Below are positions 9,264 to 9,977 of a stretch of 24,479 nt of DNA, one piece after another (the stretch's first letter is position 1; every line of letters begins with the position of its first letter). The notes below the pieces were generated by a model, which was not told where the DNA came from, did not search any database, and was given only the letters and a program-made list of their open reading frames with translations. The stretch covers positions 1 through 24,479 of the IMG/VR virus record IMGVR_UViG_3300044630_002048; one strand, 5' to 3'. A program made the translations under genes and the position numbers. The DNA is from a virus.

Positions 9264-9590
9264 ATGGGAAAGCATTACTTATTAAACCTATACGGATGCT
9301 CGTTGTCTCTCTTGGACAACGAGTTTTTTCTCTGTGATCTATTGGAGAACGCCGCCGAAGCATGTGGGGCACATGTACTTCAAACTATGTCACATCAATT
9401 CAAACCTCAGGGGGTGACAGCGATTTGTTTGCTTTCCGAAAGTCACATTAGTATTCATACATGGCCAGAAAAAAGAGAAGCGGCAGTTGATGTATTTACT
9501 TGTGGTGATTCGGAACCTAAAATTGCTTGTGATATTATTATTGAACAACTTCAAGCATTAGACTACAGGTTGGAATACGTAGTTCGGTAA
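9264..9590 (+). CDS. speD: S-adenosylmethionine decarboxylase proenzyme
   Basis: A 108-aa prokaryotic-type AdoMet decarboxylase, making decarboxylated AdoMet for spermidine synthesis. The self-cleavage site is Glu59-Ser60 within SESHISIHTWPE; Ser60 becomes the pyruvoyl group. His65 and Cys80 match the processing and proton-donor residues of the family. Length is normal for the short prokaryotic form (about 120 aa). It ends the operon that starts at 6150; its ATG follows the previous stop with no gap. speD is a recurrent auxiliary gene of cyanophages. A glutamine riboswitch unit lies just after it. Confidence 0.96.
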   Translation: MGKHYLLNLYGCSLSLLDNEFFLCDLLENAAEACGAHVLQTMSHQFKPQGVTAICLLSESHISIHTWPEKREAAVDVFTCGDSEPKIACDIIIEQLQALDYRLEYVVR

Positions 9591-9624
9591 CAAAAGATAC
9601 AAAATTAATGTGATAGATACTATA

Positions 9625-9680
9625 CGTTCATCCCTCATTGGGACGGAAGTAGGGAAACCGAAGGAACGCTCTTTAGCCTA
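9625..9680 (+). promoter_or_regulatory. Glutamine riboswitch (downstream-peptide/glnA type)
   Basis: The sequence folds as a three-way junction. P1 is CGTTC (9625-9629) with GAACG (9664-9668), P2 is TCCC (9631-9634) with GGGA (9640-9643), and P3 is CGG (9644-9646) with CCG (9658-9660). The P3 loop TAGG (9650-9653) can pair with CCTA (9677-9680) as the pseudoknot. Conserved blocks GTTCATCC, GGACGGAAGTAGG and CGAAGGAACGC match what I remember of the glnA and downstream-peptide glutamine aptamers of cyanobacteria and marine phages. The SD (AAGGAG, 9688-9693) begins eight bases after the pseudoknot, so ligand binding could control translation. Confidence 0.9.
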
Positions 9681-9699
9681 AAAATTAAGGAGAAATCCC

Positions 9700-9858
9700 A
9701 TGTCACAAGCAACATATCGTGGTTGTCAGTATAACACTGACACACCTAAAGAAGAATATCAAAAGTGGTATTCACAAACTCATGCTCCAGCACATCCACA
9801 GAATACTTATCGTGGTGTTGCCTACCGCCCATGTAAGAATCAGGAGGTAGCACAGTGA
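9700..9858 (+). CDS. 52-aa riboswitch-controlled peptide (DUF4278-like)
   Basis: A short gene starting at ATG 9700 after AAGGAG and directly downstream of the glutamine riboswitch. The product has two related segments: ATYRGCQY near residues 4-11 and NTYRGVAYRP at residues 35-44, so it looks like a duplicated TYRGxxY motif. That motif recalls the DUF4278 family of short cyanobacterial proteins. Its role is unknown; the riboswitch suggests expression follows the cell's glutamine or nitrogen state. Its final codons contain AGGAGG, the SD of the next tiny ORF, and its TGA overlaps the GTG start of that ORF. Confidence 0.85.
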   Translation: MSQATYRGCQYNTDTPKEEYQKWYSQTHAPAHPQNTYRGVAYRPCKNQEVAQ

Positions 9859-9938
9859 GTTGGTTGGAAGTTATTCGTAGACGAATTCAAAAAGAAAAAC
9901 GTTTGAAACAAGCACAACTTGTAATGGCAATGAAATAA
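9855..9938 (+). CDS. 27-aa basic peptide
   Basis: A GTG start at 9855 overlaps the stop of the 52-aa gene (GTGA). A textbook AGGAGG (9842-9847) lies seven bases upstream. The 27 residues begin MSWLEVIRRRIQKEKRLKQA and end VMAMK. The peptide is strongly basic and could form one amphipathic helix. It ends five bases before a terminator. SD quality and coupling argue for translation, although its size makes it easy to miss. Function unknown. Confidence 0.65.
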   Translation: MSWLEVIRRRIQKEKRLKQAQLVMAMK

Positions 9939-9942
9939 TTTT

Positions 9943-9967
9943 GAGGGGTTGACACCCCTCTTTTTTT
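9943..9967 (+). terminator. Terminator of the riboswitch operon, with promoter -35 at its loop
   Basis: GAGGGGT (9943-9949) pairs with ACCCCTC (9954-9960) around the loop TGAC, followed by seven T. It ends the riboswitch unit. The loop and its closing bases spell TTGACA, the -35 of the next promoter. Confidence 0.92.
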
Positions 9968-9977
9968 GTGTTATGAT
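9949..9977 (+). promoter_or_regulatory. Sigma70-type promoter of the thyX-phoH cluster
   Basis: TTGACA (9949-9954) lies across the apex of the terminator hairpin, and TATGAT (9972-9977) follows after 17 bp. The T-tract of the terminator forms part of the spacer. The predicted start is near 9984, 17 bases before ATG 10001. Confidence 0.88.

Follow-up and report, generated by a model that had tools for sequence, protein, structure and literature searches.

That viruses control the nitrogen assimilation of their hosts has so far been inferred chiefly from auxiliary genes and from NtcA sites dispersed over phage genomes. Among described systems, the gifB/IF17 cassette of Synechocystis combines NtcA repression, a type 1 glutamine riboswitch and a fusion of DUF4278 to a glutamine synthetase (GS) inactivating factor (IF); according to a review (PMC6316151), DUF4278 is the usual gene behind cyanobacterial glutamine riboswitches, and glutamine turns gifB on. 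Marine and freshwater picocyanobacteria have DUF4278 genes (for example Prochlorococcus PMM1846) that likewise pair the riboswitch with a small repeated-YRG protein. In phages, the annotated glnA riboswitch of S-CREM1 (PMC9964418) and the p189-p191 region of S-PM2 show the same succession of speD, riboswitch and DUF4278, with an ORF2 of the kind described below in S-PM2, and the marine Melnitz and Mosig phages also carry a glutamine riboswitch (PMC9004378), which is linked to tmRNA in OM43 and SAR11 phages and not to DUF4278. In addition, 157 glutamine doublets have been published as independent, pseudo-cooperative riboswitches (PMC9481103).

The stretch of DNA analysed here (the window) is an entire IMG/VR virus record of 24,479 bases that carries psbA, speD, phoH and T4-like structural genes and, as judged from its sequence, is a cyanomyovirus fragment. 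Within it the phage carries an apparent copy of the switch by which the host responds to nitrogen excess, followed by genes for two conserved micro-proteins, and the parts on which the best explanation draws, namely an NtcA-type box, an aptamer, a Shine-Dalgarno (SD) hairpin, two peptides and a terminator, can all be read in the window. Upstream of the cassette lies speD (S-adenosylmethionine decarboxylase; 9264..9590, + strand; Pfam PF02675, E 6.1e-35), as does SpeD at the equivalent position in S-PM2. The glutamine riboswitch that the initial annotation had placed ahead of two ORFs was recovered as the sole Rfam match when the whole window was searched with cmscan: the type-I aptamer RF01739, in its single canonical form (9623..9672, + strand), aligns over all 53 model positions with an E of 1.3e-9 and passes the curated gathering score of 35 bits at full length, with 54.4 bits. 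The three-way junction could also be located as described, with P1 formed by CGTTC 9625-9629 and GAACG 9664-9668, P2 by TCCC/GGGA and P3 by GG-GAAA-CC; a pseudoknot has been reported in this family on crystallographic and covariation evidence (PMC7657543).

Both small genes proved to be where they had been reported. ORF1 (9700..9858, + strand), behind the SD AAGGAG (9687-9692), encodes a 52-aa protein with a duplicated TYRGxxY motif (TYRGCQY and TYRGVAY), and ORF2 (9855..9938, + strand), the 27-aa basic helical peptide MSWLEVIRRRIQKEKRLKQAQLVMAMK, follows an AGGAGG (9842-9847) and starts at the GTG at 9855, within the GTGA that holds the ORF1 stop. ORF1 matches Pfam DUF4278 (PF14105) with an E of 8.7e-5 and 23.2 bits, slightly below the cut-off of 25.3; DUF4278 matches 10 of 11 aligned relatives, and L008, at 31.1 bits, exceeds the cut-off. 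ORF1 is therefore probably a divergent DUF4278 protein, the domain that forms the N-terminal half of the GS inhibitor IF17. It also matches PHROG 5049 (E 7e-10), and its dN/dS of 0.13 is indicative of purifying selection. An AlphaFold model of ORF1 was dropped from fold searches at a mean pLDDT of 67.8. ORF2 has an N-terminal match to PHROG 545 (E 8e-4), a family that matches both window ORFs because fusions of an ORF2-like helix with YRG motifs exist; the ORF2 profile gave no match among solved structures. The initial annotation had called the functions of the peptides unknown; with PHROG 5049, PHROG 545 and DUF4278 they are not wholly anonymous.

A common function of the two peptides is best supported by fusions, which occur in both orders. 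S-CREM1, which like S-PM2 and unlike the window has a composite double leader, joins the first half of ORF1 to ORF2 in a single 48-aa protein, and six sampled composite loci encode one protein with the ORF2-like helix first and the YRG motifs second. Downstream of the composite leaders of relatives, a YRG (DUF4278-like) ORF is found in 116 of 125 cases, and most of the remainder are fusions.

We lean, with moderate confidence, towards a gifB-like cyanomyovirus transcription unit that is controlled by nitrogen status and whose peptides act on host ammonium assimilation. NtcA, at a repressor-like distance, would block transcription while 2-oxoglutarate is high, and glutamine binding would stabilise P1 and open the SD, so that both peptides would be made only in a nitrogen-replete infected cell. 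Since the fusions suggest joint action, the peptides may together act on host ammonium assimilation, GS (or PII) being, less surely, the likeliest target; glutamine would then be held down and 2-oxoglutarate would rise, favouring NtcA-driven phage promoters and shutting the cassette off again. There is precedent in the expression of a host-type small regulator, CP12, by cyanophages (PMC7760959). We propose, with modest confidence, host nitrogen assimilation as the most likely site of action, with GS or PII as the first targets; if the peptides do inhibit GS, they would provide a direct viral handle on nitrogen entry in marine and freshwater primary producers.

The window shares with gifB/IF17 the aptamer class, a DUF4278 gene directly behind it, an NtcA-type box at a repressor-like distance and the nitrogen-replete logic, and the two elements of gifB-type control, box and riboswitch, both stand in front of the genes. 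What it does not share is the IF7-like GS-binding core, in place of which there is a separate, coupled basic ORF2 with no detectable homology. Three arginines (R8, R21 and R28) are invariant in 19 cyanobacterial IF cores and absent from ORF2, and hhalign found no alignment between the ORF2 profile and the IF7/IF17 core (probability 0.15), a comparison that excludes ORF2 as an IF7-like peptide. By sequence, the cassette accordingly falls outside the IF family, lacking the IF7/IF17 inhibitory core. A structure search with the Synechocystis IF7 sequence, which is 100% identical in two genomes, returned chance matches only. The earlier proposal that the phage senses nitrogen and alters host metabolism, as GlnA-inactivating factors do, thus retains a plausible nitrogen-control link through DUF4278 and the NtcA box and loses its IF homology.

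A possible though less favoured reading keeps the regulation as described and lets the peptides spare GS: ORF1 would be a DUF4278 regulator of the kind seen in picocyanobacteria, while ORF2 would serve another phage step as a basic helix that binds RNA or membranes. In Cyanobiaceae genomes the aptamer also precedes DUF4278 proteins without the IF core, and these, unlike those of the window, are 66-74 aa long, have three YRG motifs and are followed by no ORF2; the DUF4278 part alone may therefore have a role in picocyanobacteria. It also speaks for this reading that IF-type regulation of picocyanobacterial GS is unproven (PMC6316151) and that ORF2 is without the three IF arginines. The link to GS, on the other hand, is favoured by the combination of NtcA box, glutamine riboswitch and DUF4278, which is the gifB set, and by the fusions that tie ORF2 to DUF4278. 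We also note that in some cyanobacteria (L275, L276, L277, L278 and L291) the riboswitch is followed by an ORF of 45-61 aa that has an IF-like core but lacks DUF4278, and behind it by a conserved ORF of ~50-66 aa (..AHR..LLETLEHRLxxAK..LVxQLEAEKxYY).

The NtcA-type box GTAACAAAAGATAC (GTA-N8-TAC; 9587..9600, + strand) is centred ~31 nt upstream of the first P1 base of the aptamer. Of 121 non-redundant related leaders, 110 have an exact GTA-N8-TAC in the 120 nt that precede the aptamer, a ~20-fold enrichment over the 3.5% expected from shuffled sequence or the 4.8% from random windows of the same loci, and spacers of 5-7 or 9-11 nt in place of N8 occur in only 3-12 of the 121. Before the aptamer there is also a weak, possible -10 or T4-late-like element, GATAGATA (9612..9619, + strand), of an A/T type that is conserved in position within the leader class of the window; in another class of leaders, a sigma-70-like promoter is present and the NtcA box lies ~52-55 nt upstream of the aptamer. 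NtcA-activated promoters have their site at -40.5/-41.5. The sites of the NtcA-repressed gifA and gifB genes are at -30.5/-7.5 (PMC6316151), and if transcription starts at the 5' end of the aptamer, we infer that the box of the window has the repressed gif geometry, not the activated one. It is unlikely, though far from negligible, that NtcA activates instead, in which case the cassette would respond to nitrogen stress, with glutamine lowering or raising its expression. Cyanophage NtcA sites, known already from cyanophages generally, are usually read as activators (PMC3037559), and the box position of the sigma-70 class would suit activation; in the class of the window, given the same start, a centre ~31 nt before the aptamer rather than at -41.5 argues for repression. 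Among open-licence PMC papers we found no report that ties an NtcA site to a riboswitch in a cyanophage, and the box and the terminator of this cassette are additions of the present analysis. The latter is an intrinsic terminator, GAGGGG-TTGACA-CCCCTC followed by T7 (9943..9967, + strand; hairpin 9943-9960). Its loop, TTGACA, is at the same time the -35 element of a following promoter (TTGACA-17-TATGAT; TATGAT 9972-9977), and equivalent merged terminators and promoters follow the ORF2 of L010, L017, L022 and other relatives. In sigma-70-type leaders (for example L003, L345, L390 and L383), an upstream inverted repeat holds the -10 box in its loop, and the arms of this repeat vary among phages yet remain complementary (mean longest arm 5.7, compared with 4.0 in shuffled sequence).

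The expression platform (9663..9698, + strand) was folded with ViennaRNA as a free ensemble and with P1 forced. In the free ensemble, CTCTTTAG (9669-9676), just behind P1, pairs with the SD region TTAAGGAG (9685-9692), and this hairpin is extended by an outer pairing of GGA 9663-9665, part of the P1 3' strand, with TCC 9696-9698, which immediately precedes the start codon; the extended SD hairpin and P1 thus compete. In other alleles, GGA/UCC, AGG/CCU or AAC/GUU provide the equivalent P1-competing pairing. When P1 was forced, the inner 8-bp anti-SD stem of the window was still paired (SD unpaired 0.01), and the SD became about half free in some alleles only, for example L017 and L054. The P1-competing pairing of the leader fits glutamine-ON control, the direction of which rests, for the window, on precedent and not on folding, because the 8-bp stem persists with P1 forced. 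The precedent is that cyanobacterial glutamine riboswitches have been measured to be glutamine-ON (reviewed in PMC6316151). We consider it improbable that the switch is glutamine-OFF, with P1 freeing CTCTTTAG to mask the SD and a ligand-free alternative fold leaving it open: the masking of the SD with P1 forced would agree with this, but the SD is masked in the free ensemble too, and more strongly (-24.4 vs -20.7 kcal/mol), and the known type-I and type-II riboswitches activate (PMC6316151).

ORF2 overlaps ORF1 by 4 nt in all 80 IMG/VR relatives and is intact as a basic peptide of 27-35 aa in 79 of them, L049 being truncated; conservation of the frame in relatives was one of the checks named in the initial annotation. 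Its dN/dS is 0.16 and 0.10 in the two common variants and 0.15 in a third (0.10-0.18 over the well-sampled variants); a fourth, at 1.37, comprises 3 sequences, too few to judge. That the 27-aa peptide is not made, and that its frame is open simply because an RNA element is conserved there, is very improbable: ORF2 is very short, amounts to one basic helix and is left without annotation in two of four annotated isolates, but the low dN/dS, the 79 intact copies, the constant ATGA/GTGA coupling, its fusion to DUF4278 elsewhere and a stand-alone ORF2-like peptide behind the riboswitch in L374 all argue against a spurious frame, which we excluded on dN/dS, coupling and fusions. The expectation that such an ORF would usually escape annotation held for half of the four annotated isolates with a separate ORF2; it is annotated in S-PM2 (p191) and S-SRM01 (gp019). 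Several ORF2 variants stand behind near-identical copies of ORF1 (for example in L009, L010 and L015), which suggests exchange of cassettes.

Among 88 homologous loci, 26 have a single aptamer like that of the window, 57 have 'tandem' leaders and five were left unclassed. A scan for the joint GGAACGGATCGTTCA identified at least 120 viral stretches, and altogether 125 distinct composite leaders were collected, mostly from metagenomic relatives; the patterns used to gather them fix the flanks but leave X, Y and P2 positions 3-5 free. Their order is CGTTCA-P2-GACGGAAGTA-X-GGAACG-GAT-CGTTCA-P2'-GACGCAAA-Y-GAAGGAACG, in which the canonical 5' junction GGAAGTA occurs in the first half only and the canonical 3' junction GAAGG in the second half only. 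X is complementary to Y, and the two covary. Within the long class (n=99), X8-Y1 is U-A in 78, G-C in 20 and A-U in 1, X1-Y8 is A-U in 88, G-C in 6, G-U in 3 and C-G in 1, and X5-Y4 likewise changes on both sides. The observed covariation scores were reached by 0-1 of 1000 shuffles, and a register control lowered the score from 0.76 to at most 0.38. Two near-constant A.C mismatches in the long class keep the nearest-neighbour folding weight of X/Y low (0.05).

The published doublets (PMC9481103) resemble most relatives of the window locus in having two aptamer-like halves in a row. The window, however, is single, and neither it nor its relatives hold two complete aptamers per leader: the phage halves split one consensus and X/Y covary as a shared P3, so that the phage doublets are probably not two independent aptamers. 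The best reading of the sequences is one outer aptamer, with X/Y as its P3, that encloses a circularly permuted inner module in which GAT closes P1'. X/Y would equally serve a kissing helix between two aptamers, but this is disfavoured relative to the nested form by the consensus split and by folding, in which the outer P1 has a probability of 0.83 and the local P1 stems of the two halves have 0.02 and 0.005, values that likewise disfavour two independent aptamers. At least in phages, glutamine riboswitches catalogued as independent tandem pairs may thus be one interlocked sensor. Examples of the shared-P3 form are L003 1372-1466 and L004 1378-1470. Among 400 Cyanobiaceae genomes searched for GGAACGGATCGTTCA, it was present in six, one of them through a phage contig (L209). 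This contig (G001 contig C3, 189,106 b; L209 and L298), filed as Prochlorococcus AG-418-C09, has the phage cassette, including a nested ORF of the outer kind; L209 was set aside as host evidence, and its candidate counterpart is the IMG/VR phage record IMGVR_UViG_2716884766_000001 (189 kb).

Many composite leaders also show, at the sequence level, protein-coding genes nested within the loops of the aptamer. An ORF of 50-70 aa lies within a P2 loop in 76 of the 125 (56 inner, 32 outer, 12 both), the loop being replaced by 136-223 nt that hold the intact ORF; examples are L002, L005, L006, L008, L015, L021, L023 and L079, among others, for the inner P2', and L007, L008, L015 and L341, among others, for the outer P2. 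The nested ORFs begin 3-7 nt into the 5' strand of P2, except in two inner cases at 15. The inner ORF continues past the 3' strand of P2' in 52 of 56, and these 52 end most often with DAKAD and a TGA or TAA inside Y-GAAGG. In the inner P2' stems that bear an ORF, compensatory changes maintain pairs 3-5 (covariation reached in 0-3 of 1000 shuffles); their outer counterparts are mostly paired and too few for covariation testing. With start codons in the P2 stem and most inner stops in the ligand-side junction, this anatomy implies that a sensor folded around its ligand would preclude translation of the nested gene, and such translation the ligand-bound fold, giving a two-way glutamine switch. 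We hold it an even call that the riboswitch of the sister phages combines shared-P3 halves, genes in P2 loops and such a two-way switch, the window being a reduced single-aptamer allele. No report of genes nested in glutamine aptamer loops or of a shared-P3 architecture was found among open-licence PMC papers.

The nested ORFs have dN/dS values of 0.20 (inner) and 0.29-0.57 (outer), and their proteins match PHROG 504, 6471 and 13397, families without an assigned function. In the inner family C8 and C43 are invariant, and an AlphaFold model is a two-helix hairpin (pLDDT 82), the only confident structural match of which (E 2.3e-5) is an unnamed 51-aa entry with 61% identity; weaker matches are to uncharacterised cyanophage proteins. 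RefSeq S-SRM01 gp017 and DSL-LC02 WJZ48349.1 are such nested genes, annotated without any riboswitch. Finally, in the marine single-cell virus contigs L007 (1680-1881) and L008 (1679-1876), a manA RNA (RF01745, 162-185 bits) stands directly behind the DUF4278 ORF.
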